DNA from: Undaria pinnatifida
Taxonomy: Eukaryota > Sar > Phaeophyceae > Laminariales > Alariaceae
Length of the DNA: 64,000 nt
Direction: 5' to 3'
Assembly (NCBI GenBank): GCA_012845835.1
Contig: JABAKD010000002.1
Location: 21,418,274-21,482,273 of the forward strand
Positions 1-56,190 of the stretch are shown in pieces. Each line of letters opens with the position of its first letter. The stretch's first letter is position 1. Below the pieces are notes generated by a model. It ran no database searches. It was not told where the DNA came from and saw nothing but the letters and a program-made list of their open reading frames with translations. A program made the translations under genes and the position numbers.

Positions 1-942
1 AGTAGTAATTGCAACTGAGTTCAAAGTAAAGGAAAAGCCCTTTCACTCTGGCGGTGAATAATAGTCCACGTTACCACCCGAGGTTAGCGTCAAGGTGTCA
101 TAAAGCGGCGGCACTTTTGTAGTAGACAGTACAGCAGCAGCAGGGCCACAACAGCAGCAATATAAAGCATAACAGCAGGAACAGAAAGAAGCAGCGGCAG
201 CTACTACTCGTACTGCTACTAGGTAGCTCAGGCGTAGAGTTTGGCTGAACCTACTCACCTGCAGTACATTCAAGCCACCTGATACGCTCACCACCGACAG
301 CAGCAACCGAATCGCAGCAGCGGCAGCGGTGGCGGCAGAAAACAGCAGGCATCAGGAGGCAGCAGGAGGCAGCAGCAGGCAGCAGCAAGTGAAAAACGAG
401 CTGTAGAACTCATTTCGTATGGCCCACTGAACGCAAACATGTGGGGGCCGGCTGAGATTTTTTAAATGAAATTCTATTACAATAGTGATTCTCATTGCAT
501 CTTCGTCCAAAACCGTCTTCAAGTAATAAAAACGTTTAGGTCTACCACAAGCTACTTTTCAGTGACAATCCTGTGTCCACGAGCTCAAATTGGTTCGACA
601 CGAAACCATCCGTCTCCCTCCTGTCTCCCACCAGTCCGAACGCCAGCGCCCGCCAGAGCCCGCTTTGGTCTTGGGCTCGCTCGTAATCACGAGTTTTTCC
701 GCGTGCCTGATACAGGCTCTGCTTCTCTCGAAAAAATAAATCAAAAAATAGAGTATAAGTATAGGAACAGTCGAAAATTGTCATTGCTGTGAATAGCAAA
801 AAAATTATCCACTTGGGAAATGCGTATATATATACGACACCTCCAAAATAGTCTGCTGGCGACCTGTTCCGGCTGGGTCCACGACAGCGGTACAGCTTCT
901 TCGATGTATGCGTAGCTCCGTAGGAAGGTTCGATCACAGCTG
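1..942. other. No gene recognised; CAG/GCA-rich stretch
   Basis: No convincing coding region is visible. About 125-395 is rich in GCA/CAG triplets (agcagcagg variants), which produces short poly-Ser, poly-Cys or poly-Ala frames in several phases. The rest is unique-looking DNA leading into repeat RA at 943. Confidence 0.5.
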
Positions 943-1322
943 CTCGGCGCGCTGATGCAGATGCTCTATCGTTAAGCGGTACACGTGCTCGTTCTAGAGC
1001 CGTGTAGTGGTTTCAGCATTGGTAGATGATCCATCTGCAATTGCTAGGTTGCGATTTGACTCTGCAATTGTTCACACTTATAATTTTTACCAGGAATTGT
1101 TGCACGAGTTTTTAGCTTCCTTAATAATTTCGCCGCATGTTGATGATGCAGCTGTCCTCCTCGCAATCAATTCCAGTCAGATGTAGACCATCAGGAATGT
1201 CTTCCCAACGATCTTGCTGTGCGCACTGCGCATGTCGAGACTCATAACCTTTTCAGTATTCGGTTTGTAAAACCTTGGAAGATGGTATCATAGCGCTGGC
1301 AGTGGTCAATCTACCTTGCGGG

Positions 1323-2902
1323 CCACCTGCACTATGAGCTTCCACCAAAATCTGCTTCCACGCTTCCATGCCGTGGAAGCTTCCATTAAATCTTCCACGG
1401 AAGCTTCCACGGAAGAAACTTCCACGGAAGCTTCCACGAAAGCTGCCACGGAAGCTTCCACGGAAGCAACTTCCAGGGAAGCAACTTCCACGGAAGCTTC
1501 CATGTAAGCTTCCGCGGAAGCTTCCACGGAAGCGACTTCCACGGAAACAATTTCCACGGAAACAATTTCCACGGAAGCTTCCATGAAAGCGTTCACGGAA
1601 GGTTCCACGGAAGCAACATAATCCTAACCCTAACCCTAACCCTAAGCTTCCATGGAAGTTACTTCCATGGAAGCTTCCATTACTTCCGCGAAAGCTTCCA
1701 TTACTTCCATGGAAGCTTTTGTAGAAGCTTTCGTGGAGGCTCTCGTGAAATTTACTTCCACGGAAGCTTTCATATGTCCCATATCTTCCATGGAAGCTTC
1801 CACGGAAGCTTACGGAATCTCCCATAAAAGATTCCGTGGATGTTACTTCCGTGGAAGATTTCATGCCTTCCATGAAAGCTTCCACGGAAGCTTCCATGAA
1901 GACTTCCGTGGAAGGTTCTTCCGTGAAAGCTTCCATAACTTCCGCGAAATCTTCCATTACTTACCATGAAAGCTTCCATGGAGGCTTTCGTGGAAGTTAC
2001 TTACATGGAAGCTTTCGTGGAAGCTTTCGTGGCAGCTCCCGTGGAAGTTACTTCCGTGGAAGCTTTCATATCTTCCATATCTTCCATGGAAGCTTCCATG
2101 AAGACTTCGGAGGAAGTTACTTCCGTGAAAGCATCCATAACATTCGCGAAAGCTTCCATTACTTCCATAAAAGCTTCCATGGAATATCCCGTGGAAGTTG
2201 CTTCCATGGAAGCTTTCGTGGAAGCTTTCGTGGAAGCTCCCGTGGAAGTTACTTCCGTGGAAGCTTTCATATCTTCCATATCTTCCATGGAAGCTAGGAG
2301 GCTTCCATGAAGACTTCGGAGGAAGTTACTTCCGTGAAAGCTTCCATAACATTCTCGAAAGCTTCCATTACTTCCATGAAAGCTTCCATGGAAGCTTTCG
2401 TGGAAGTTACTTCCATGGAGTCTTTCGTGGAAGCTTTCGTGGAAGCTCCCGTGGAAGATATGTCGGTGAAAGCTTTCAGGTCTTCCACATCTTCCATGGA
2501 AGCTTCCACGGAAGCTTTCATGGAAGCTTCCGTGGAAGTCACTTCCGTGAAAGCTTTACTAATTTCGGCGAAAGCTTCCATTACTTCCATTAAAGCTTTC
2601 GTGGAAGTTACTTCCATGGAAGCTTTCGTGGAAGCTTTCGTGGAAGCTCCCGTGGAAGTTACGTCCGTGGAAGCTTACATATCTTCCATATCTTCCATGG
2701 AAGCTTCTACGGAAGGTCCATGGAAGCTTCTATGAAAGCCTTCATGGAAGCTATGGGAGCTTCCATGGAAGCTTTTATTGAAGTTTCCACTGCGTCAAAT
2801 GCTTCCATGGAAGCTTCCATGGAAGCTTCCATGAAAGCGGTGAAAGCTTCCACGGAAGCTTTGATGAGCTTCCACGCAAAATGCAAGTAGTGCCGGAGGC
2901 CA
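1323..2902. mobile_element. Palindromic 12-bp array cassette PA1
   Basis: The segment is a long run of a 12-bp unit, GAAGCTTCCRYG, alternating the palindromes AAGCTT and CCRYGG (CCATGG, CCACGG, CCGTGG, CCGCGG). Every unit is its own reverse complement, so the whole array can fold on itself in any register. It is flanked by direct repeats ACCTTGCGGG (1313-1322) and ACCTTGCTGG (2903-2912). The unoccupied RA copy reads ACCTGGCTGG at the same place (9688-9697). The ends carry an imperfect inverted motif: CCACCTGCACTA on the left and, on the minus strand from the right end, CCTCCGGCACTACTTGC. That right end matches the cassette at 39,882. The 12-mer lacks stop codons, so both strands show long but meaningless frames (Ser-Phe-His-Gly or Glu-Ala-Ser-Met repeats). 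Confidence 0.75.
1623..1645 (-). repeat. Interstitial telomere-like (CCCTAA)n tract inside PA1
   Basis: Just over three CCCTAA units lie between two array blocks of PA1. The tract reads as TTAGGG on the minus strand. A similar tract lies next to PA3 and a weaker one inside PA4. Confidence 0.8.
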
Positions 2903-3537
2903 ACCTTGCTGGGGGTTGAAAATCAAAGATATTTTACGTTGAAAGTTGCCGTTTGTGGGCGAGAAACGCAAGAGGAGAATGGAGGAACAAGAGGGAGAGA
3001 GCAGGAGTGCGTGGGGGGGGTGCGCTTGCACGGCCGTTGTCGATCAACTCAGCTCTAGGGCTACGTAGATTTTTACCCTACGGGTCTTTGCATGATCTAC
3101 CGACAGCAACGTTCCCTGAGACTTATGGCCTAACATACCTGCGGCAACGCTCCCTGAGCTTTTCTTGTGGAAGTTTGGCCACGTCAACATCCCAATAGTC
3201 AACCAAACATCCTATTCCCTCAACGTTGCTTATATGTACGCGATTGTACGGCATTACGAGTGACTCGTATCTATTGCACCGCATTGCTCGTACGTAATTC
3301 TGCTGCTACCAGGTAAGCAGTAGGTCGAGCGGTGGCATAACGCCGACTACGATGCTTCTGATTATTAACCTGTACAATGTTCCCCGTCGAGGGATGGGTG
3401 ACGCAAGAGGCTGATGCTTTTGCATTTTGCACCCCCACGCGTTTGCCCGTATCACAACGGTAGAGTATGCACCTATTTCGCGATTTGATTGGTTCGGGTG
3501 TATAAGAAATGAAGGTACTGCTGTGTAGGGACGGCGC

Positions 3538-6454: not shown

Positions 6455-7350
6455 TCAGGCCCTGAAATTCTTCATCAGCCCGATGAGCTAGCGGTGACGA
6501 CGCTTGTTGAGGAACTTCGTCCCTAAATCTGAGATGTTGTCCTCGGTCGGCAGGCACGCGACTAATTCTAACCTTGCATTCCTGTACAATTTCACGGATG
6601 TAGAAAATCCGTAGAACCACGTGCTTAGAACGCGAGCTGAGTGTGTGGTTTTCTCATCGCTAGTGCTGCTGCGACAAGTTTTGCCTCCATGGTTAACTGG
6701 GCCGTGATTCCCTAGCGACCCACCTTAAGGCTCACTGGCGCGTTTGACATCATCGTCATGTACGATGACATTGACTTGCCGTTACCCGGGTTGTTGCCCC
6801 AGTTGGCGTCCGAAGACGCGGTTAGGGCAAAACCCCTTTCATGTAGGTGATGTCGGAGTTGACCGTGTCGGCAAGGTAGCGAAGGACGTTCTTGGCCGCC
6901 TCCATGTGTGCATTGGATGGATTTTGCATGGCCCTCGCAAGTTGGTTGACACCATAGAGGATACCGCAGCGAGTAAATTGACCCAGGTACATTATTATTA
7001 AACCTGTGATTTCCTTATTATCGTTGTTTCTGTATGGCGTTAAGAAGATCCCCTTCTGGCTGGTCGAGCGACAGTTCCTTTCCTATTCCAGGCGTGCTCA
7101 CGGGTTCGAACGCTCCCAATCCGTACTTTTCGTCCAGGGTCCTTGTGCAGTCTGCTTGAGAGATGGTGAGTGTCCCGCTTTCACGATTTTGGTTGACTTG
7201 CATACCGAGAACCAGCGAGATGAAGCCCATGTACGTTGTAGCAAAGCGAATCATTAGCTTCTCCTTTAGAATCGTGAGTACCGCCTTGTCGCCTCCAGCA
7301 AGCACCAGGTCGTAGACGACGTAGAGGGTGAGGATGGCGTCCGGCTTCTT
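6455..7350 (-). pseudogene. Ty1/copia pol remnant (reverse transcriptase, RNase H, C-terminus)
   Basis: Minus-strand translation in three frames recovers the 3' half of a Ty1/copia polyprotein. The RT part (about 7350-7018) contains LTLYVVYDLVLAGGDKAVL, where the usual YVDD catalytic motif reads YVVYD. This is followed by LVLGMQV, GTLTISQ and PVSTPG, typical of copia RT. After two stop codons the connection reads in another frame (NQLARAMQNPSNAHM), followed by an RNase H segment at about 6835-6640 with SDANWGNNPGNGKS and TMEAKLVAAALAM. The C-terminal end near 6620-6455 shows FYIREIVQE, then after a shift DLGTKFLNKRRHR and LIGLMKNFRA, then TGA. Stops and at least two frameshifts make it dead. 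No integrase, gag or LTRs were identified with confidence, so it is a fragment. The family assignment is secure. The host lineage is not. Confidence 0.85.
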
Positions 7351-7994
7351 GCTCGTGTTCGCCGTGTTGTTGTTGATGGAGTCGTCGTCCGTGCAGGAAA
7401 CGTGCACCATGAAGCTATTATATTTAATGAAGGTGATGAACCTGAAGAAGCCGACGAAGCTGAAGCTTGGAATTAAGCAAACCCAGCTTTGGACTCCGAC
7501 GTAGTAGCTGCTGCCAGTCCTGCGGTAGCCGCCTTTGTTGTATGTAGTAGTGATGAGGCTGATGTAGCTTCCGCCAGGTTTGCTGCTACTGCTGCTGATG
7601 GAAATGATGATGATAATGCTGTCGAAGGCGTTTACCCCGTGTCTTGATCCGCTAAAGGCTCCATGTCTTGAGTTGCTGAACACGGCACTTTTTTTTTTTT
7701 CAAGACATTGATATTTGTGGTGGTGATGGCCCTTTGATAGATGATGGGTAGCTGATGGGAGCGGTAGTCGTTGATGATGACATCCCAGCGATGGATACGC
7801 AGCTGACGAAATTATGAAGGAGTGGTATAAGTAGAACACGAAGTAGCGGTAGTAGTCCCAGCGATATTTTCCGTTGGAGACAATGTAGTTAGACTGTGCA
7901 CGTTGTTACTGTTCCAGGCTCTCAACTCGTTGTCGATGCGTCCCTACAATGAGCTGCATCTGGTGGTCCGACGACTTTGAAAGCGTGTTCGAAA
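7351..7994. other. Unrelated sequence upstream of the copia RT
   Basis: The open frame on the minus strand continues to 7839 but loses copia similarity. It contains low-complexity (gct/gat)-rich DNA, including a T-run at 7690-7700. It is probably a later insertion or junk joined to the RT frame, and no gene is recognised. Confidence 0.4.
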
Positions 7995-9342: not shown

Positions 9343-9822
9343 GCTCGGCGCGCTGATGCAGATGTTGTCTCGTTAAGCGGTACACGTGCTCGTTCGAGAG
9401 CCTCATAGTAATCTCAGCGGTTTTACATGATCAGTCTGCAATTTTTAAGCCGCGATTCGACTCGCTGCTGTTGCTCTCGCTTTCATCTCTGTTGTTCCTG
9501 AGTAGTCTAGTCGATGATGTAGCAAGCAGTCTTCTTAGCAGCAATTGTTAGCGAGCTGTATAAGTCTTCCGAAACGTCTTCCTGGTGACCCTGTGATGTG
9601 CGCACCGCGTTCTCGAGGCTCATAAACTATTCGTTATTCGATTGGCATGTAACCCTTGGCAGAATTGCGCTTGTAATCGTGAATCTACCTGGCTGGCGCT
9701 GGGAAGTCAAAGAATATACTTCGTGTTGAACGTTGCCGCTTGTGGGCGGGAAACGCAGAAAGAAAAGTTAGAAAAAAGAGTGGGAGAAAACAAGAGAGTG
9801 TCACGGACGCACGTTATTTGAC

Positions 9823-10251
9823 TTTTCGGCGTAGGTTCGCGGCAATGACCGCGGAACTTCCACGAACTTCCGTGGGTGTTGCCACGGGCTACCATGCAAA
9901 TCCGCGGGTTTCCACGGCAAGTGCCAAAGCTAATGGTACTTCCATGGCAAACGCCACGGTTGTGGCCACGGCACGTGCCGCGGTTCTGTCCGTGGCACAC
10001 TCCGTTGTACCGACCTTGGCAACTCACGATAGTCCGCGGCAAATGCCACGGCAGTTTCCGTGGAAACTGCCGTGACATATTCCATAGCCACCCGCGGCCA
10101 TTGCCACAGCAACGCGGCAATCACCACGGAAATCCGCCGGCGTCCGCGGCAATTACCACGGAAGTTTCCGCGGACGTCCAACCGCAGCAATTTCCTCGGC
10201 CATCCGCGGCCGTCCGCGGCCATTGTCACGGCAATCCTCCGACAGTGATAT
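9823..10251. mobile_element. Palindromic 12-bp array cassette PA2
   Basis: A 429-bp array of CCRYGG cores at mostly 12-bp spacing, with flanks TTGCC/TTTCC rather than the AAGCTT of PA1. It is bracketed by a perfect 12-bp direct repeat, ACGTTATTTGAC, at 9811-9822 and 10252-10263. The ends show an imperfect inverted match: cggcgtaggttcgcggcaatg on the left against cggaggattgccgtgacaatg on the minus strand of the right end. Confidence 0.65.
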
Positions 10252-10324
10252 ACGTTATTTGACAATTCCAACCATGCCCCAGTGATGTTATTGGGGGGCA
10301 CTTCGACCGGTACTATTTCGTATG

Positions 10325-10380
10325 GGTTAGCGTTAGGGTTAGCGTTAGGGTTAGGGTTAGGGTTAGGGTTAGGGTAAGGG
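10325..10380 (+). repeat. Interstitial telomere-like TTAGGG tract
   Basis: About nine GGGTTA/GCGTTA units in a row, with two TTAGCG variants at the left. Being inside a dispersed element, it does not mark a chromosome end. Confidence 0.9.
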
Positions 10381-10409
10381 TTCCATGGTTTTCAAACACA
10401 CAATAATAT

Positions 10410-10869
10410 AAGACACCCGGTGTCCGCGGGGGTGGCTGTGGGTCTTCCCGTGAGTGTTTCCGTGGACCTATCGGTGGATGCCCGCGGACGTTTTCGTGGG
10501 CAGTCCGCGGGTGTTTCCGTGGGCTTGTCCGTGGGTGTGTCGGTGGGCGCTGCCGTGGGTGCTTCCGTTGACGTTTCCGTGGGTGACCGCGGCTTTGCCG
10601 TGGGTGCTGCCGGAGAGATTTCCGGTAAGATTGCATTGGGTCTTACCGTGAAGATTGCCGTGGAAATTGCCATGGCTAGTGCCATGGGCCTCCGCGGTGT
10701 TCCGCTAGTTGCTGCGGCATTCCGTGGGAGCCCGTGGAATGTCGGTGGAAGGCCGTGGAAGATCCGCGGCAGCCCGTGGAGTGTCCGCGGTTACCCGTGG
10801 AACTCCGTGGACATGGCCGTGGAATGCCGTGGAGGTTGATGGACTCTGCCGCGGTGCTCCGCCAAAAAG
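10410..10869. mobile_element. Palindromic 12-bp array cassette PA3
   Basis: CCGTGG, CCGCGG and CGGTGG cores follow one another every 12 bp, with gt/gc/ga flanks (for example tttccgtgggct, ttgtccgtgggt). The array sits inside TL1 between two copies of acaataat (10400-10407 and 10870-10877). TL2 has the uninterrupted order caaaataatgtacat, so the short repeat behaves as a target duplication of about 8 bp. Confidence 0.65.
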
Positions 10870-11112
10870 ACAATAATGTTGTACATCCCTTGAGAGTGTG
10901 TGGGGGTGCGCTTGCACGACCGTCCTCGAACAATTCAGCTCCTCATGTAGATTGTTACCCTACGCGTCGTTGTCTGGTCTACCTACAGCAATGTTCCCTG
11001 AGGTTTGCTCGTGGTCTACCGTACATACGGCACCGTTCCCGGATGTTTGCTCGTGGAAGCGCAGCTATGTCAGCGTCCCGACAGATAAACAATTATTATC
11101 CTATTCCCTGAA

Positions 11113-11305
11113 CGTTTCTTGTACGTATGTGCATGCACCGCATTACGCGTGTCTGATTACACCGCAATGCTCGTGCTGCTAAGTAGTAGGTAGACCGACG
11201 TTTCTTGTACGCATATGATTGCACCGCATTACTCGTGTCTAACTAGGGCCGTCTAATTTCACCGCAATGCTTGCACGCCTTACTGCTAAGTAGTAGGTAG
11301 ACCGA
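11113..11305 (+). repeat. Local tandem duplication in RA copy 2
   Basis: Two copies of a block beginning cgtttcttgtacg (11113 and 11199) and ending gtagtaggtagaccga. The second is longer because of an inserted 'ctagggccgtctaattt'. RA copy 1 has one such block. Confidence 0.7.
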
Positions 11306-18449: not shown

Positions 18450-18772
18450 TCTTTTTCTTTTATTTTTTCACACACTTCTACCCTCCACCTTCTGGACAAA
18501 CAAGCCGTGGTTGGTCACAGGTGGCGTCCCTCTCCCCTCCGGTTCTTGCCTTCAATTTTTATCGCGCACAGGGTTCAGCAATCCCACTGCTCGTCGATTT
18601 TTCATCGAGTGTTGCTTTGCTCACGCTCTCGCGCTTTCCGCAAGTCAATTTGTGCTCAAGAAAAAGCCCCCACGAATTTATACGAGTATGCACTCGGGGG
18701 GATTCGAACTCACGAAACTGACCTATACTAGGCTCGAGGATAACCTGATACGCCACCGGGGCGACCGGCTTC
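18450..18772 (-). mobile_element. SINE-A copy 1 (tRNA-derived)
   Basis: The minus-strand element begins at the tRNA-like head cggtcgccccggtggcgtat, with an A-box-like TGGCGTATCAGG and a B-box-like GTTCGAATCCCC. It continues through a conserved body (cttgcggaaagcgcgagagc, agcagtgggattgctgaacc) and ends in an A-rich tail, seen as the T-rich 18450-18468 on the plus strand. Homologous copies lie at 36.7, 51.9 and 52.2 kb. Confidence 0.85.
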
Positions 18773-21955: not shown

Positions 21956-22002
21956 CGCTTTTTCAACTCACATTCCAATACTGCGACAAAAAAAAAAAGA
22001 CG

Positions 22003-22275
22003 ATTGCTACGGTAGAGGTGCACCACTTTTTTTTTCTTAATACTACCCCTCAATTTGGGAGAGCTTAAGACATGTCTTAATCCAATAAATGATTTGGAGA
22101 AAAGTAAGGCTGCTACACTGGATGAAGAATCCCATGGCCTAGATACGCAACGAGAATCGTGAAGAAGAAAAAAAAAATGGCATGTTTTCCGACGATTTCG
22201 GGTTGAGGGGGCCCGTCATTCAGAAAAAAAAGCCAGAAAAAAAGGTAGACTATACGTCTAGCGTAGCATGCGTCC
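22003..22275 (+). mobile_element. MITE-like element D, copy 2
   Basis: Starts tgctacggtagaggtgcacc. It continues with gagagcttaagacatgtc, aatgatttggagaaaa, cccatggcctaga, ccgacgatttcgggttgagg and gcccgtcattcagaaaa, and ends agcgtagcatgcgtcc. The ends are inverted relatives of one another. Confidence 0.75.
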
Positions 22276-22487: not shown

Positions 22488-22682
22488 TACGCGCGTGCTA
22501 CGATAAAGGCATATGGTATACCCCTTTTTGGCTAAAAATGTTTTCTGAAATGATGGCGGGCTGCGATGGAGGTTTATGGTATACCCCTTTTTTGCAGAAA
22601 ATATATTTTGAAATGATGGCGGGCTGCAATAGAGGTATATGGTATACCTCTTTTTGGCTAAAATATTTTCCGAGTGACGGGC
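22488..22682 (-). mobile_element. MITE-like element D, reversed, with 60-70 bp internal repeats
   Basis: cgcgcgtgctacgataaagg starts the reversed right end. Then three tandem blocks containing tatggtatacc-cctttttggc and ttttctgaaatgatggcggg follow at roughly 60-70 bp spacing (22510, 22570, 22640). Confidence 0.65.
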
Positions 22683-22959: not shown

Positions 22960-23512
22960 ACACGTGTTTCTTCGGTAGAGGTGCACCACATCTCTTCTGA
23001 GGGGTTCCTCGATTTTGGAGCTTAAGACACCTCTCCCCCCCCCCAAAAAAAAAGTGATTTGGAGAAAAACATATAACTGCTATCATACCCCGGATGAAAA
23101 ATCCCATGGCCTAGGTACAGAACGAGAATTACGCCAAAAAACAAAAGTTGCGTTTTTTTTTTTTTCCGACGATTTTGGGTTAATTATAATTAGCCCCGTC
23201 GTTCAGAAAACGTTATCGCCAGAAATAGGTATACCTTAATATGGCGTATTTCCGACGATTTTGGGTTAATTATAATTAGCTCCGTCATTCAGAAAACGTT
23301 ATCGCCAGAAATAGGTATACCTTAATATGGCGTATTTCCGACGATTTTGGGTTAATTATAATTAGCTCCGTCATTCAGAAAACGTTATCGCCAGAAATAG
23401 GTATACCTTAATATGGCGTATTTCCGACGATTTTGGGTGACGGAGCCCCGTCATTCAGAAAACATTTCCTCAGACGAAAACTGCTACGGTACCTCTATCG
23501 TAGCACGCGTCT
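22960..23512 (+). mobile_element. MITE-like element D, copy 3, expanded
   Basis: The left end is cttcggtagaggtgcacc. The internal landmarks gatttggagaaaaacat and cccatggcctaggta are present. The right end is gctacggtacctctatcgta followed by gcacgcgtc. An 86-bp tandem array (23166-23475) lies between the usual cgacgattttggg landmark and the right end, so this copy is nearly twice as long as the others. Confidence 0.75.
23166..23475 (+). repeat. 86-bp tandem array within element D
   Basis: Units start at ccgacgattttggg at 23166, 23252, 23338 and 23424, exactly 86 bp apart. There are three full units and one partial unit. Copies 2 and 3 look identical or nearly so. Each unit has gtcattcagaaaacgttatc and ggtataccttaatatggcg, which are normal internal parts of D. 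Confidence 0.95.
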
Positions 23513-34290: not shown

Positions 34291-35105
34291 ACTATTACAT
34301 ACAACAATTAATCACAGCTCCTGAACTAGGAGACTCTCGCCCCTCTACCAAGCATGCGAAAAGATTCCGTTTTCATGGTGCTTGAGCTTGGATGGTTGGA
34401 TGTTGATGATTGTGGTTGAATGTATTGTCCAAACAGCGTCACCGGTGGTATGTTAAACAAAATAGTCCGCTGATTCTTTGCGCCAGCGCCAGCGTGGACG
34501 GACGCGAGCGGCTTTGGGGCCTGCATACGAGACTTTGGGTGCTCTATACGAGACACCAAGGCACGACATGCACTCCTACCACGTACAGCGTGCTACGCAA
34601 TACCAAGCATCCCTACCTTTTACGGTCTGCATGTATAATGTGTACCTGGTACAACAACCTGAACGACAGCATAATCCTATACGACGTACTACCTGGTACA
34701 CTGCATACCCACTCGCCGCTCCACATAATACACAATTAATGGCATGCCGTGAAAAAAAAAACCGAAGAAGAAGCCAGTCGGCAGTCTTGATTGACTCACA
34801 CGAGGCTGCTTGTTGTTTGGTGCACCCCCCTCACTCTTCCTCAAGGCAGACCCCGTTATATCCAGACCTTCAAATCTGCATTATTATTATTATAAATGCT
34901 ATTTAATATTAGTAGGAGTACAACGCACGAGCTGCAGTACGCTACAATAATACGAATAGACTACCACTTGACTACCAATATAATTGATGTTGTAAAAAAT
35001 AAAAAAATACTCCTTTATAACTAATTTTCAAGGACGTCAGCCGTGAGTTTGACTCTGTATTCAGCTGTGAGATCGACCAAAAATGTTTTCTGATACAACC
35101 ATTTT
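34291..35105. other. No gene recognised
   Basis: Two plus-strand frames (109 and 142 codons) overlap in different phases and lack motifs. TACCTGGTA words are at 34646 and 34689. The end of this stretch carries a diverged E-like start (gacgtcagccgtgagtttga). Confidence 0.3.
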
Positions 35106-35322
35106 GTAAAAACAAAAATACACCCCAGCTGTGAGATCGAATATTTTGTCGAAACTCATATTTGCAAGCTGGGTGTGATACTCCGATCGCGCGTATTACT
35201 GGACGTGTGTCCTCAGTAAGGATACAGGTCGGCAACTCCGCTTGAAACTACGGTGTAGCTTGTACCAAGGTCAACAGGGTGATGTTAGTCAGTCTGTGCG
35301 CGGAAACGGTAAAACCCGTTTT
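35106..35322 (+). repeat. Dispersed repeat E, copy 2
   Basis: ccccagctgtgagatcgaat, attttgtcgaaactcat, gtgtgatactccgatcgcgc, ggtcggcaactccg, gtcagtctgtgcgcggaaac and gtaaaacccg appear in order. Confidence 0.8.
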
Positions 35323-35422
35323 TTATATACTATAAAAATGAAAATACACTCCAGCTTTTATGTACGAGTACCAGGTACAGGTACCAGGTACCAGAGGTAT
35401 GTACTTGCATTGAATATAATTT

Positions 35423-35900
35423 ATTATAACAATAAAAATACACTCCAGCTGTGAGATCGAATATTTTGTCGAAACTCATTTTTCTTTGCAAGCTGTGTGT
35501 GATGCTCCGATCGCGCGTATTACGGGTTGTGTGTCCTCATTAAGGATATGGGTCGGCGACCCCCCTTGGAACTACAGTGTAGCTATCAGGGTCAACACGG
35601 TAATGTTAGGCAGTCTGTGCGCGGGAACTATAAAACCCGTTTCTGAGGGGGACAAAATCTGACAGCTGTGGAAGGAAATGCATCAGTTTATCAAGTGAAT
35701 CCTGTAAGTCGAATAACCGGTGAGGGGAGGGCGGAGTTTGTAAGGACGTGGGGGCCTGGTTTCGATCAAAAGGGGGGGGGGGGGGGGGGGGGGGGGGCAA
35801 CTCAATTTGTGCGTGGAAACTCTAAATCCTTCAAGGGGATAAATCTGACGGTTTTGGAAAGAATGCACCAGTTTATCATGGGGGAGGGGGGAGGGGGGGG
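35423..35900 (+). repeat. Dispersed repeat E, copy 3 (longest forward copy)
   Basis: It has all landmarks of copy 2, then continues through ggacaaaatctgacagctgt, ggtgaggggagggcgg, cgtgggggcctg and a 25-base G-run at 35773-35797. After that the body repeats partially (tgtgcgtggaaactctaaat). The reversed copy at 50640-51100 follows the same order and also has a homopolymer block at the corresponding place. Confidence 0.85.
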
Positions 35901-36706: not shown

Positions 36707-37025
36707 CGTTCGCCCCGATGGCGTATCAGGTTATTATCCTCGAGCCTGGTATAGGTCAGTTTCGTGAGTTCGAGCCCAGCCGAGTGCATACATACTCGAA
36801 TGAATTCGTTGGGACTTTTTCTTGTGCACAACAAATTGACTTGTGGAAAGCGCGAGAGCGTGAGTTAGCAACACTCGATGAAAAATCGGCGAGCAGTGGG
36901 ATTGCTGAACCCTATGCGCGATAAAAATTAAAGGCAAGAACCGGGGGAGAGAAGGGACGACACCTGTGACCACGGCTTGCCCAGAAGCTGGAAAGTAAGA
37001 GTGTGAGAAAAAAATAACCAAAAAA
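36707..37025 (+). mobile_element. SINE-A copy 2
   Basis: The head gttcgccccgatggcgtatc has an A-box-like TGGCGTATCAGG and a B-box-like GAGTTCGAGCCC. Body landmarks are acttgtggaaagcgcgagag, cagtgggattgctgaaccct and gcaagaaccgggggaga, followed by cctgtgaccacggcttg and an A-rich tail to about 37040. A direct neighbour is repeat I. Confidence 0.85.
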
Positions 37026-37048
37026 ATAATAAAAAATCATGCAGAGTG

Positions 37049-37112: not shown

Positions 37113-37253
37113 TAATAATAACAACACCAGGTAGCATGTAGTATTACGAGTATATACTCCCGAGTATAAAATAAGTCGGTTTCTAGTACTCCTCATGCCC
37201 TTCCCACTCTGTTGTTATACTCGTATGTATTATTGATATATATATAGTATCAC

Positions 37254-37555
37254 ACACAGCTTGCAAAGATGAGTTTCGACGAAATCTTCGATCTCACAGC
37301 TGGAGTGTATTTTAATTTTTATAATATATATTTAGACTATAGGAGCGCAAATGGTATATTATAAAAATTAAAACACACTCCAGCTGTGAGATCGAATATT
37401 TTGTCGAAACCCATCTTTGCAAGCTGTGTGCAGTGTGTGATACTCCGATCGCGCGTATTACGGGTTGTGTGTCCTCATTAAGGATATAGGTCGGCGACTC
37501 CCCTCTTGAAACTAATAATACAACAGCAGTGTAGCTATCAGAGGGTCAATTGATT
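37254..37555. repeat. Two repeat E copies head to head (inverted repeat)
   Basis: The left arm (37254-37327) is the reverse complement of the start of the right arm (37355 onward). cttgcaaagatgagtttcga on the left mirrors aaacccatctttgcaagct on the right. The spacer is about 27 bp and contains TAGACTATA (37333). The right copy continues as a full E to about 37555. Confidence 0.85.
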
Positions 37556-39745: not shown

Positions 39746-39881
39746 CGAGAACAGGCCTACGCACCTGCTGGGCACCACACACTGCATGCACGCTACAATA
39801 ATACGGGTACACACTACAGCCCTACAGTACACCGAAGTAGGAGGTATAGGAGTGCGTGTTTGGCATCGCGTGCCAATACTC

Positions 39882-40064
39882 CGGTCTCCTGCACTACTTG
39901 CTTTTTGTGTGGAAGCTTATGAAAGCTTCCGTGCAAGCTTCCACCGCTTCCATGGAAGCTTTCATGGAAGCTTCCGTAGAAGCTTCATGGAAGATATGGA
40001 AGCTTCCACGCAAAAAAACAAAACGCAAGCTTCCACCGGTCTCCTGCACCTCTTGCTTTTGGCC
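39882..40064 (+). mobile_element. Palindromic-array cassette, short copy related to PA1
   Basis: A 183-bp unit is flanked by the perfect 9-bp direct repeat CCAATACTC (39873-39881 and 40065-40073). Its left end, ggtctcctgcactacttgc, then a spacer, then tgtggaagcttatgaaagct, matches the minus strand of the PA1 right end. A second copy of ggtctcctgcac-ctcttgc lies in direct orientation at 40037, near its right end. The interior is a short run of the AAGCTTCC / CCATGG palindromes. It appears to be a short sibling of PA1 in the opposite orientation. Confidence 0.8.
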
Positions 40065-40073
40065 CCAATACTC

Positions 40074-42540: not shown

Positions 42541-43253
42541 AACGTAGTAACGGGTTTTGGGTTCTGTGGACCTTATTGCCTGTTTTGTAAACTGTTTTTA
42601 AGTGTGTTTTGTGATGTGATCCTGTCTCGCATGGGACCTCGCGGACTCCCGTAGGTGTATCGTAGGACTCCACGGGTTCCCATCGCGGCATCCCACAGCA
42701 CCTTACGGGACTCCTTATGGGACCCTGTGAGATCCCGCGGGCATCCCGCGGAATTGCCCTCCATGGGAGTGCCCACAATAACCCCCCACCCCCCCCCCGG
42801 TAGTTCCCATGGGAGTTCCCATGGACCCCACGTCACACGTTGTCCCACGAGTTGCTACGGGTTCCAAGGAGACCCCACGAAAATCCCACGAGGTCCCGAA
42901 ATTGGATTTTTTTTCCGTCGACTTAGTTCCATCGACTAACCCCAACCTGTACCACCTAGCCCTCCCTAACCCTGCGGGACCCCGTGTGAGCATCCTACGG
43001 CATCCCTTAGGATCGCAAGAGTGTCCAGGGTTCCCGCGGTAGCTTGCGCGTGAGTCCACATGGGATCCCGCGACATCCCGCGAAACCTCAGCTGGGGTAT
43101 GGTGCCGCCGGGTCCCACCCGTGAATTCGTGGGAGGCCGTGGGTTCCCACATGGAAAGCCCCGGGATTCCATGTGGGAGTCGGCTGCATCTAGTGGAATC
43201 CCGTGGCATCCCATGGGACTTCCCACGGGCATCAAAACCCGCTATTAGGAATG
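42541..43253. mobile_element. Palindromic-array cassette PA4
   Basis: A 713-bp stretch dense in CCCRYGGG and GGATCCC palindromes at 10-12 bp spacing (cccgcgggcatcccgcgg, cccatgggagttcccatgg). It is bounded by a near-perfect 8-bp direct repeat, AAAATCGT at 42533-42540 and AAAATCAT at 43254-43261. The ends form an inverted pair, tagtaacgggttttg on the left and, on the minus strand of the right end, aatagcgggttttg. Around 42900-42980 the array is interrupted by unrelated sequence with weak CCCTAA-like words. Confidence 0.6.
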
Positions 43254-44288: not shown

Positions 44289-45910
44289 TATCGCCGTATG
44301 CTTGCTCGATATTCTCTGTACAGATTTTGGTGCCGCGTACTACGTACGCGTAGTCTAAACGAGTACGAACTCGTTGTGTACTCGTACAATGCTCGTACTC
44401 ACTTGTTTGTGGTGTGTTCGCTCGTACTCACTCGCAGGGTCGTCTTTTGTTTTTGAAACGATGTATCAACATGCTTCCCTGCTACTACTACTATGGATCG
44501 GACAATAATACGTACCAGGTACAGTACAAGTAGATCACCAACAAAAGTGACAATCCCATGGTCACTGCGAGATTTCCCGGTAAATAAATTGCCGCCGGCA
44601 GAGATGCGGAGCGACTGGTCGTCGGCCATACATATCTACTGCAACTCCTGCTATTGTGCGTAAATAAAGGTAGATTTTTGCGTCCAAATCTGGAAAAGTT
44701 TCCGCGTGCGTGGGAGCGTACGTGCGTGGACTATTGACACTGCGGTCACGTTTTCCCGTTTTGACCGTCAGGTGACCGCATCGCCTAGCGCCTCGCAATC
44801 AAGGTTTCCTACATATTGGCAAGTAGAAACCCCGCGTTTTCGTATCAAACATGACCAAAGAACAAAGGGGCATTTTTGAAGAAAAATAAAAACATGGCTC
44901 TCTTAGGAACACGGGGATAAATCGCAATGTAAATGCCTCCTACAGAAGCTGAGTCTTGGGGTTTAGTCCCGTAGTTTAGCCGTCACATGCCCCGTCACGT
45001 CACCTAACTGCCTATTTCTTTCCATGACGTCACTCGATAAACTACGATCACGCCTCATCTTTGATTGGATCGCTAACGACCATGCCGGCTTGGACTAGTA
45101 TTATTGAAAAGCTTCTTCCTGCTGGCTACCTACTACGCGTGAGCGATCGAAGCTTAACCTGGGCATTGTCGAACGGCAAATAAATACAATCACGATTAAA
45201 ATACTGTCATGTTCTCATAATAATGCACTGATTTTCGCTACGTTAATTTGAGCTGGTCTAGGAACTGCTATCTTTATCTGCAAGTTATTTTCATGATATC
45301 ATGCCAAATATTACTTCCAGTCAGCGTATCAATTCCTTCGTGTATAAACATGTGTATGTGTAAGTTTAGATGTGTATGGCTTTCAGTGTGGCCCCTCCTC
45401 CGCACTGGGCAGCTAGGTCGGCCATACACTTCTAGACCTTACCAGCAGACCAGCACAACCCCATCAAGCAACTGCCCTTGGGCACAACATAGCCGAAAGG
45501 TGCTCTTAATGGTAGGGAAGGAGAATCAAATATCTCTGCGTCGTGCAAGCCAGATGAAAACAACGATTGTTTCGGAAAGAAAAGACGTAGTGGTCACGCG
45601 ATAATTATTGTTGTACAACAACACTACACGTTTCGATACATGATTCCCGTATTTCTTTTTTTGTTTGTTTGTTTGTTTGCCATCTTTTGACAAGGTGCAG
45701 CGTGAGCTACAATACAAAAAACGACGATTCGGCCGGAGAAAAAAAAAAAAATTAAGACCGATTTATGCGACACAGAGCAATCCTACGTACTAAAGACCAA
45801 TGGCCTTACCAACCGTTTTTGACGTACTAAGCCCTCCAGAAACTACGGCGATACACATTATTGTGTATTTTCATGCGCACTATAGTGTTTTTTCAGCATT
45901 TTTACCGCAG
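44289..45910. other. No gene recognised
   Basis: Contains a cluster of ctcgtac/tactcgt words near 44340-44440 and a TACCAGGTA at 44513. A 118-codon plus frame (45248-45604) has no motifs. Confidence 0.35.
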
Positions 45911-46009
45911 TCATGTCATGACGGGGCACTTCGACCGGTATTTTGGAACGGGTTAGGGTTAGCGTTAGTTCCATGGTTTTGAAAAATCAAAATAATGTAC
46001 ATGAGACGA
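45911..46009 (+). mobile_element. Telomere-like element TL2 (uninterrupted copy)
   Basis: gggcacttcgaccggtattt, gggttagggttagcgttag, ttccatggttttgaaaaatc and aaaataatgtacatgag are in the same order as TL1 at 10268-10891 but without array PA3. It is therefore the reference empty site for PA3. Confidence 0.7.
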
Positions 46010-50639: not shown

Positions 50640-51100
50640 CGCCCCCCGCCCCCCCCGCCACATTCCCCCCCCCTCCCCCACAAGAAGGATTTATAGTTTC
50701 CACGCACAAGTTGACCTACCCCACCCGCCCCCTTCCCCCCCCTCCCCCCCTCCCGCCCCCCTTTTGATCAAAATCAGGCCCCCACGTCCTAAAAAACTCC
50801 GCCCTCCCCTCACCGGATATTCGACTTACAAGATTCACTTATTAAACTGATGCATTTCCTTCCACAGCTGTCAGATTTTGTCCCCCTCAGAAACGGGTTT
50901 CATAGTTTCCGCGCAAAGACTGCCTAACATCACCCTGTTGACCCTGATAGCTACACTGTAGTTGCAAGGGGAGTCGCTGACCTATATCCTTAATGAGGAC
51001 ACACAACCCGTAATACGCGCGATCGGAGTATCAATCACAGCTTGCAAAGATGAGTTTCGACAAAATATTCGATCTCACAGCTGGAGTGTATTTTTGTTTT
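50640..51100 (-). repeat. Dispersed repeat E, long reversed copy
   Basis: From right to left it follows copy 3 (35423-35900): cactccagctgtgagatc-type start at 51090, gatcgcgcgtattacgggtt, then ccgtttctgagggggacaaa, and the ggtgaggggagggcgg block. At the place of the G-run it has C-rich runs (about 50630-50765). Confidence 0.85.
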
Positions 51101-51107
51101 TTTAGTA

Positions 51108-51195
51108 AAATGAATCAACTGCTATGAGCGCCTAGCAGCGTGCGGGTAGGCGCAATTCAACGCGAGTTGACGAGGGAAGAAATAGCTGGAGTCAT
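51108..51195 (+). repeat. SINE-B body fragment
   Basis: aatcaactgctatgagcgcc, tagcagcgtgcgggtaggcg and gacgagggaagaaatagctg match 50235-50315 without the tRNA-like head. Confidence 0.75.
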
Positions 51196-51703: not shown

Positions 51704-51860
51704 TTTCTGCCCTGGTCGACTCGCATCGAATTGCTTACAACCTATTGATCAAATAAAACAATACGTACGGCACTGTACCGGTACCACAAGTGAAATGCTC
51801 GTAAAACGTACTAGGTGTAGTATGTATACGTACGAGTACAGCCAGCCGTGGACATAGTAA

Positions 51861-52189
51861 ACCGGTCGCCCCGGTGGCGTATCAGGCTATCCTCGAGCCT
51901 GGTATAGGTCAGCTTCGTGAGTTCGAGCCCCGCCGAGTGCATACTCGTATAAATTCGTTGGGACTTTTTCTTGTGGACAAATTGACTTGCGGAAAGCGCG
52001 AGAGCGTGAGATAGCAACATTCGATGAACAATCGACGAGCAGTGGGATTGCTGAACCCTATGCGCGATAAAATTTGAAGGCAAGAACCGGGGGGGAGGAG
52101 GGACGACACCTACCTGTGTCCACGGCTTGTCCAGAAGGTGGAAAGTGAAAGTGTGCAAAAAAAATAAATAAATAAATAAAAAAAAAAAA
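51861..52189 (+). mobile_element. SINE-A copy 3
   Basis: Full-length: head accggtcgccccggtggcg, B-box gagttcgagccccgccg, body, and an AAATAAATAAAT-type tail. It is flanked by the direct repeat ATAGTAA (51854-51860 and 52190-52196), a likely target duplication. Confidence 0.9.
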
Positions 52190-52196
52190 ATAGTAA

Positions 52197-52504
52197 CCGG
52201 TCGCCCCGGTGGCGTATCAGGTTAACCTCGAACCTGGTGTATGTCAGTTTCGTGAGTTCGAGCCCCGCCGAGTGCATACTCGTATACATTCGCTGGGACT
52301 TTTGCTTGTGCACAAATGGACTTGCGGAAAGCGCGAGGGCGTGAGTTAGCAACACTCGATGAAAAATCGACGAGCAGTGGGATTGCTGAACCCTATGCGC
52401 GATATAAATTGAAGGCAAGAACCGGGGGGAACAAGGGACGACACCTGTGACCACGGCTCGTCCAGAAGCTGGAAAGTACAAGTGTGTGTGTGAGAGAGAA
52501 AAAA
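52197..52504 (+). mobile_element. SINE-A copy 4, in tandem with copy 3
   Basis: Starts ccggtcgccccggtggcg right after copy 3 and ends gtgtgtgtgagagagaaaaa. The 3' flank repeats atagta (52505-52510). Both copies therefore share the same duplicated site. Confidence 0.9.
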
Positions 52505-55731: not shown

Positions 55732-55917
55732 ATTGTCGTTGTCGTTATTATTGTCATACTGCTTCTTGACACTCTGCCTTGTCTGCCACGGTGTTTTTTT
55801 TTTCTGTTCGTTGACATAACACCCACGCTTCTGGCGAGGAATCGTCGTCAAAACGTCCACACTGCTTTGTTCCGCTACTATAAAAGTTACCTGGTACCTG
55901 ATAACAGTATAGACGCG

Positions 55918-56190
55918 CGCAACGATAGAGGTGCACCACTTTTTTCTTCAAGGTTCCTCAATTCGGGAGCTTAAGACCCCTCCAAAAAAAATGATTTGGA
56001 GAAAAATCAAAACTGCCACCGGATGAACAATCCCACGGCCTAGGTGCACAGCAAGAATCATGCAAAATAATGGTCTGTATTGAGTTTATTTATTTTTCCA
56101 ATGATTTTGGGTTAAGGAGCCCCGTCATTCAGAAAACGTTTCACACGAAAACTGCAGGGTAGCTCCATCCTCAGCACGCTTCATTACTTG
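55918..56190 (+). mobile_element. MITE-like element D, copy 5
   Basis: cgcgcaacgatagaggtgca at the left and tagctccatcctcagcacgc at the right form a loose inverted pair. All internal landmarks are present (gggagcttaagacccctcc, atgatttggagaaaaatc, cccacggcctaggtg, ccaatgattttgggttaagg, gccccgtcattcagaaaacg). Confidence 0.8.

Follow-up and report, generated by a model that had tools for sequence, protein, structure and literature searches.

Near-palindromic 12-bp repeat arrays in Undaria pinnatifida: probable arms of Foldback-type DNA transposons with a telomere-type middle

How does an array of a 12-bp repeat, satellite-like in appearance and devoid of coding capacity, come to occupy several separate places in one stretch of a genome? 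The question is raised by the stretch analyzed here (hereafter the window, 64,000 nucleotides, C26:21418274-21482273) of the 511,146,479-bp, 68-contig assembly of Undaria pinnatifida, in which a first-pass annotation had described five repeat cassettes (PA1, PA2, PA3, PA4 and a copy near 39.9 kb). In our view the arrays very probably form the arms of Foldback-type DNA transposons that are non-autonomous and move by cut-and-paste. The elements insert as a unit, duplicate their target, have two unlike ends and inverted arms, and carry an inherited tract of telomere-type repeats. The features of the window on which the argument is built are as follows (TSD, target site duplication; TIR, terminal inverted repeat).

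1313..1319: left TSD of the PA1 element (ACCTTGC, 7 bp, exact), placed by the empty paralogue
1320..2902: PA1 element, complete, B end left and A end right, placed by its ends and the empty paralogue 9343-9800
1320..1335, forward strand: B end of PA1, fitted to the B consensus by its outer 16 bp only
1345..1619 (limits approximate): short arm of PA1, CCACGG-polar 12-bp units
1620..1644: telomere-type tract of PA1 (CCCTAA on the forward strand), at the polarity switch
1645..2862 (limits approximate): long arm of PA1, CCGTGG/CCATGG-polar units
2863..2902, reverse strand: A end of PA1; the match to the 39.9-kb copy ends at 2901/39883
2903..2909: right TSD of the PA1 element (ACCTTGC)
9794..9801: left TSD of the PA2/PA3 element (GAGAGTGT, 8 bp, exact)
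9802..10891: PA2/PA3 element, a single insertion, absent from the paralogue 2903-3291 and with end motifs common to other copies
10237..10415, forward strand: middle module of PA2/PA3 with GGCACTTCGACCGGTA; TTAGGG tract at 10324-10382
10892..10899: right TSD of the PA2/PA3 element (GAGAGTGT)
39874-39881 and 40066-40073: TSD of the 39.9-kb copy (CAATACTC, 8 bp; null p 0.0003)
39882..40065: the 39.9-kb copy, a short PA1-type copy of 184 bp without telomere tract, 88% match to 2801-2901
42541..43253: PA4, TIR 13/15 (p 0.003), TSD AAAATCGT/AAAATCAT (7/8, null p 0.0095)
45844..46007: solo middle module without arrays, MITE-like, with TTAGGG tract and TIR; no TSD found

The window has a GC content of 48% and is, in our reading, eukaryotic DNA. 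A Pfam search of 10 chosen reading frames returned a Copia-type reverse transcriptase fragment at 7018-7905 (partial RVT_2, E 3e-7, just below the cut-off) and, beyond it, one weak match taken as chance; a tRNA scan with ARAGORN and a comparison with Rfam were negative for the window. Other repeats accompany the arrays. Copies of one family (18452-18771, 36707-37036 and 51854-52488, two of them in tandem near 52 kb) are 84-90% identical, and their reverse strand looks tRNA-derived, so that the family is perhaps a SINE, a call that neither ARAGORN nor Rfam made. Another family (35101-35832, 37246-37549 and 50684-51109) has copies that are 82-90% identical, two of which form the empty site of an element elsewhere in the genome, L134. 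Tandem arrays of 86-bp units (98% matches) and of 63-bp units lie at 23163-23438 and 22503-22670, respectively, and 21998-22227, 22973-23214 and 55911-56140 are related stretches.

The most direct evidence for insertion comes from two stretches of the window, 942-3291 and 9343-11174, which are paralogous outside the arrays (66% identity over 832 aligned columns with the arrays excluded, and 72-81% in individual pieces). PA1 interrupts the former stretch at a point that is continuous in the paralogue at 9343-9800, and PA2, tract and PA3 together interrupt the latter at a point that is continuous in the paralogue at 2903-3291, so that the two stretches serve as empty sites for each other's insertions. 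Since the empty sites are reciprocal and TSDs bound both insertions, PA2 and PA3, initially taken as separate cassettes, are arms of one element (9802-10891), whose order is left end, PA2 arm, core, PA3 arm and right end. The first-pass annotation had all five arrays bounded by direct repeats of 8-12 bp; duplications of 8 bp flank PA2/PA3 and the 39.9-kb copy, that of PA1 is 7 bp long, that of PA4 matches at 7/8 positions, and PA2 and PA3 share theirs.

The 12-bp periodicity claimed for PA1, PA2 and PA3 was borne out, with lag-12 matches of 0.54 and 0.49 in the PA1 arms, 0.39 in PA2 and 0.45 in PA3. Compared with 200 dinucleotide shuffles, the CCRYGG core is in excess in every array: 13 versus a shuffle mean of 0.3 in the left arm of PA1 and 35 versus 0.5 in the right arm, 20 versus 1.5 in PA2, and 25 versus 1.5 in PA3. 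The excess is weakest in PA4, whose halves have 6 and 5 cores versus 0.9 each (largest shuffle 5 and 4), and in the 39.9-kb copy (1 versus 0.07). Perfect 10-bp palindromes exceed the same shuffles in the PA1 arms (8 and 24 versus 0.25 and 1.3) and in the 39.9-kb copy (3 versus 0.2, largest shuffle 3), but not in PA2 and PA3 (1 and 0 versus 0.7 and 0.5). The self-complementarity ascribed to every unit needs correction: beyond the core the units are near-palindromic only, and they have a polarity. Pooled over PA1 and PA2/PA3, the left arms contain 18 CCACGG and 4 CCGTGG, and the right arms 5 and 27, respectively (Fisher p for the arm contrast 2.7e-6). PA4 has a period of 10 and too few cores for a polarity test; it is probably a distant relative, and its membership in the family is weak.

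The same plan recurs elsewhere in the genome. The complete PA1-type elements examined all run from an A end (CGGTCTCCTGCACTACTTGC...) through to a B end (...GCAGATAGTGCAGGTGGCCC), and these ends have 309 and 382 genome copies, respectively, at no more than one mismatch, with no copies of either reversed control. Both ends, of about 40 bp each, contain GTGGAAGC; because this is a piece of the array unit, the unit is plausibly a repeated end piece. An array 20-mer, independent of ends and flanks, served to choose a set of 20 loci of 8-9 kb, drawn from the top of the listing of its exact matches (contigs C1 and C2) with three places skipped, namely the first and two later ones at 18.05 and 18.06 Mb of C1. 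Complete elements were found in 12 of the 20 loci, a single A end being paired with a single B end in all 12, and of the remaining eight, six have one end and two have none; at L148, a pairing of B ends that spans two adjacent elements was left uncounted, as was another element there that was recognised only in part. TSDs of 8-9 bp flank 10 of the 12 complete elements, nine exactly and L134 at 8/9 positions, and are missing from L135 and L138. When the same TSD caller was run on 20,000 random placements, 0.92% had a duplication of any kind and 0.11% an exact duplication of 8 bp or more. A second set consisted of 17 new convergent pairs drawn from 100 listed A and 100 listed B ends, for most of which the ends alone were examined. 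Here, a TSD match of at least 7/8 was found in 12 of the 17 pairs: 11 of 15 pairs (five exact) and, exactly, a mini element of 175 bp; four of the 15 and L215 fall short of this, L215 having no TSD.

Empty sites were found outside the window as well. For each of the 12 complete elements we joined the two flanks and matched the product against 51 genomic stretches; an empty site across the junction was recovered in four cases: L134 (at 35.4k and 51.1k of the window), L139 (at L175), L140 (at L147, L164 and L183) and L138 (at L176). The empty sites of L134 (with one mismatch), L139 and L140 fix the TSD at 8 bp, and the termini in the latter two elements are CGGTCTCC...GGTGGCCC. L138, whose empty site is known, either inserted without a duplication or has since lost it. 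The first-pass annotation was therefore right that the arrays are mobile, encode no protein and generate short target duplications, and that they are no ordinary satellite. Duplications and empty sites are present, and the arrays have insertion boundaries rather than grading into their flanks, the outcomes that it had named as refuting its proposal being absent. Its further claim that the insertions consist almost wholly of palindromes without a unique core was not supported; they have two distinct ends of about 40 bp, inverted arms and a telomere-type middle.

This middle separates arms of opposite polarity. In the 13 complete PA1-type elements (the 12 fetched ones and PA1 of the window), oriented with the A end to the left, the arms are composed of near-palindromic CCRYGG units of 12 or 15 bp with cores that are mostly CCA(T/C)GG in the left arm and CC(G/A)TGG in the right arm. 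CCGTG outnumbers CACGG in the right arm of all 13, and the reverse is true of the left arm in 12 of the 13, L134 being tied; some of these margins are small (for example, 6 versus 5 in the right arm of L143). The arm cores would be simply accounted for by a polar CCACGG unit that points opposite ways in the two arms and turns into CCATGG through decay of its CpG. Arm lengths differ widely among copies. Between the arms lies a tract that reads TTAGGG in 13 of 13 elements and is degenerate in L151, and the sequence that joins tract to array, GGAAGCAACCTAACCC, has 70 genome copies (control 1). TTAGGG is the telomere repeat of this genome on contig-end evidence: of the 20 ends inspected, belonging to 10 of the 68 contigs, five carry runs of it in the telomeric direction. 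The tract is thus an inherited and oriented part of the element. It is absent from the 175-bp mini element, with its exact TSD, and from the 184-bp 39.9-kb copy, and is therefore not needed for movement. Some copies have a longer module around the tract, and L138, L141, L143 and L144 form a subgroup with a longer middle, AT-rich in its left part and ACGGTGAAACCCCCTTCGTCTCG-like in its right part. A conserved G-quadruplex as the purpose of the tract was considered and rejected as a general rule: six of the 13 elements and 12 of the 30 cores qualify.

The inverted arrangement is also visible in predicted folding. Modelled as single strands, all 13 elements fold more stably in natural form than after reversal of the right arm (differences -11.5 to -102.3), and PA2/PA3 gives -258.9 in natural form versus -214.0 after the same reversal and -208.5 +/- 5.3 for 10 shuffled versions. 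PA4 folds nearly the same both ways (-128.8 versus -125.7 reversed), natural and reversed forms of the solo module hardly differ, and the 39.9-kb copy is less stable in its natural form (-43.9) than after reversal of its right half (-57.8); this copy has no end-to-end inverted repeat (p 0.92). Comparing the left arm with the reversed and the direct right arm gave 261 and 212 for PA1, 139 and 100 for PA2/PA3, and 71 and 67 for PA4, whose halves are separated by a degenerate TTAGGG tract at 42936-42972.

The PA2/PA3 element represents a second type. A core 16-mer from its middle has 100 exact copies in the genome (control 0), and we examined the first 30 of these plus the two of the window. At least four CCRYGG cores on each side were found at nine of the 32 loci, eight of which have the same polarity as the PA1 type, the exception being L170 (0 versus 3 on the left, 1 versus 1 on the right); the remaining 23 mostly resemble short modules that lack arrays. 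GGGTTAG occurs at least once in 25 of the 30 core loci. The array-bearing copies have about 40 bp of their outer ends in common, and a clear TSD was found in two of the six two-ended copies (the window element, 8/8, and L172, 7/8, by eye). The ends of the three types resemble each other in 13 of 15 comparisons against letter shuffles (p <=0.04), the exceptions being A-soloL (0.086) and B-soloR (0.173); because the solo-end and right outer-end sequences were written by eye, the test counts only as supporting evidence for a relationship between the ends of the PA2/PA3 type, the solo module and the PA1 type. Among 10 solo modules with both ends recognised, L155, L164, L167 and L177 have matches of 8-10 bases with one mismatch, near the ends and with offsets left free, L178 has an A run only, and five have no duplication; a TSD of the solo modules is thus weakly supported.

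Several other origins of the arrays have to be weighed. Satellite or minisatellite arrays expanded in place, with flanking repeats arising by chance, would account for the 201- and 410-bp higher-order repeats that TRF detects over the 12-bp period in the long arm of PA1, and for the wide variation in arm length. However, the reciprocal empty sites already contradict this for the PA1 type, and the fixed A and B ends and TSDs in 10/12 and 12/17 cases, versus 0.9% by chance with the first caller, do not fit it either, so we regard it as very improbable. An origin of the arrays in the decay of a protein-coding gene of low complexity is very improbable too. Such a gene would explain why 1129 of 1239 unit spacings of up to 45 bp in the PA1 type are multiples of 3 (main classes 12, 15, 21 and 30) and why stop-free frames reach 564 codons. 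Yet on either strand two frames out of three are open to a similar degree, which is what a palindromic 12-mer must produce; the frame is broken by 5-13 spacings per element, and the seven PA2/PA3-type copies do not keep to multiples of 3. With frames open on both strands and broken this often, we take the multiple-of-3 spacing to be that of a founder rather than a trace of coding. Rolling-circle elements of the Helentron/DINE-1 type, which are likewise non-autonomous and carry tandem repeats, are a very improbable source as well: Helitrons and Helentrons are not known to make a TSD, and 8-bp TSDs are the rule here, contradicting this origin for the PA1 type.

The tract itself invites two further readings. 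If the palindromic arms were fragile, broke centrally and were healed by telomere addition copy by copy, the tract would be a scar, and both the identity of TTAGGG with the telomere repeat of the genome and the position of the tract at the polarity switch would follow. A common junction found 70 times and a tract that faces the same way with respect to the A end in all 13 elements speak against repeated healing and are what is expected if the tract is inherited; repeated capture is thus improbable, and telomere capture could still have given rise to the founder copy. Alternatively, the tract may be a working part of the element, a host telomere repeat presented at the apex of a foldback hairpin and recruiting telomere-binding proteins or telomerase, with the units as a multivalent platform for the transposase. 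We hold this to be doubtful; if true, such recruitment would aid transposition, the protection of ends or the spread of interstitial telomere sites.

Foldback-type transposition, the reading that we prefer, agrees with insertion as a unit with TSDs of 8-10 bp, variable inverted tandem arms and a middle domain. The general kind, Foldback-type and protein-less, is already known, and in this respect the idea that the insertions match nothing standard has to be dropped: the plan is that of transposons such as Muta1 and Tm1. The comparisons that follow draw on the available portions of the cited papers. Muta1 of Aedes aegypti, a Mutator-like, type 2 Foldback element with a known transposase, likewise has 12-bp subterminal tandem repeats with 3-4 bp spacers, to which the founder spacing proposed here is comparable, TSDs of 8 or 9 bp, and more than 300 putative nonautonomous derivatives with variable repeat number; it differs in having nine units per 145-bp TIR, whereas the arms here measure hundreds of bp, and that portion neither describes its 12-bp units as palindromic nor speaks of a telomere-type middle (PMC5225508). 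Tm1 of Meloidogyne, a Mutator/Foldback family in which a transposase-coding member was found, shares unlike 7-bp terminal motifs, composite TIRs of ~14-bp repeats, MITE-like members and TSDs of 8-10 bp in 45 of 53 complete elements (most commonly 9 bp), but has 1-9 consecutive units and a purine-rich inner motif instead of a telomere repeat; the string "telomer" is absent from the text of that paper (PMC3169594). Tetris, a Foldback element of Drosophila virilis, also has tandem repeats in its TIRs, which can grow into satellite arrays, TSDs of 8-10 bp and no autonomous copy found, and differs by its TIR-220 units and variable middle domain (PMC4079207). Galileo of Drosophila belongs to a different superfamily, P, and is likened here by description; its long, Foldback-like TIRs contain tandem repeats and extra binding sites for a THAP-domain transposase, a precedent for reading the units as binding sites (PMC3688188). 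In the portions of the open literature searched, which included a repeat survey of Ectocarpus (PMC12477816) and a further paper (PMC9071541), we recognised no paper describing a telomere tract inside foldback or TIR elements, and a Foldback-type element that unites near-palindromic repeat arms with a telomere-like centre appears to be unusual. In sequence collections, a 23-bp array pattern had 0 matches, an 18-bp pattern matched at least 119 stretches of genome_contigs, with 125 loci lacking an array (at most five cores per 300 bp), and the core 16-mer occurred in six IMG/VR contigs, in contexts without tract or array and taken as chance.

A transposase sharing these ends was not found among the compared subsets of MULE and hAT matches and the listed ends. 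Profile searches of the genome gave at least 111 MULE and at least 150 hAT matches; 104 and 72 of these places, respectively, were compared with the 100 listed A ends, the 100 listed B ends and 59 of the 100 cores, and none lies within 6 kb, nor within 15 kb, of a listed end. Contig C30 carries 37 of the 104 MULE places. A 4-kb MULE locus, L236, has only scattered partial end matches of 11-12 bp with 1-2 mismatches. At L170 (C18:2996419), a hAT match lies 2.6 kb from the core, with 0.1 expected for the subset compared. Members of the hAT superfamily have 8-bp TSDs and termini resembling CA(A/G)NG; here the start is near CAGTG in solo modules and CACGG in the PA2/PA3 type, but CGGTC/GGGCC in the PA1 type. 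L215 (C25:5124201-5127889), a 3.6-kb B-to-A stretch whose frames read like a Ty3-type integrase, possibly reflects the insertion of a retroelement into, or its capture by, an element; as a candidate intact autonomous copy (3569 bp, the single long A/B pair examined), it was rejected for these retroelement-like frames, by our own reading, and for its missing TSD.

By analogy with Muta1, Tm1, Tetris and Galileo, a transposase acting in trans would cut the two unlike ends with an 8-bp stagger. The units would be additional predicted binding sites for that transposase, and may have multiplied through slippage and unequal exchange. The telomere-type tract would then act as an inherited spacer that separates the arms, and perhaps as a docking site for a host telomere-binding protein.

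In summary, these elements provide a clear case, with empty sites, of satellite-looking, short-period arrays that spread via transposition. They also present an interstitial telomere tract as a heritable, oriented part of a mobile element, and hence a route besides break repair by which telomere repeats are scattered through a genome. With hundreds of natural variants at hand, the part that repeated subterminal sites play in Foldback elements becomes testable.
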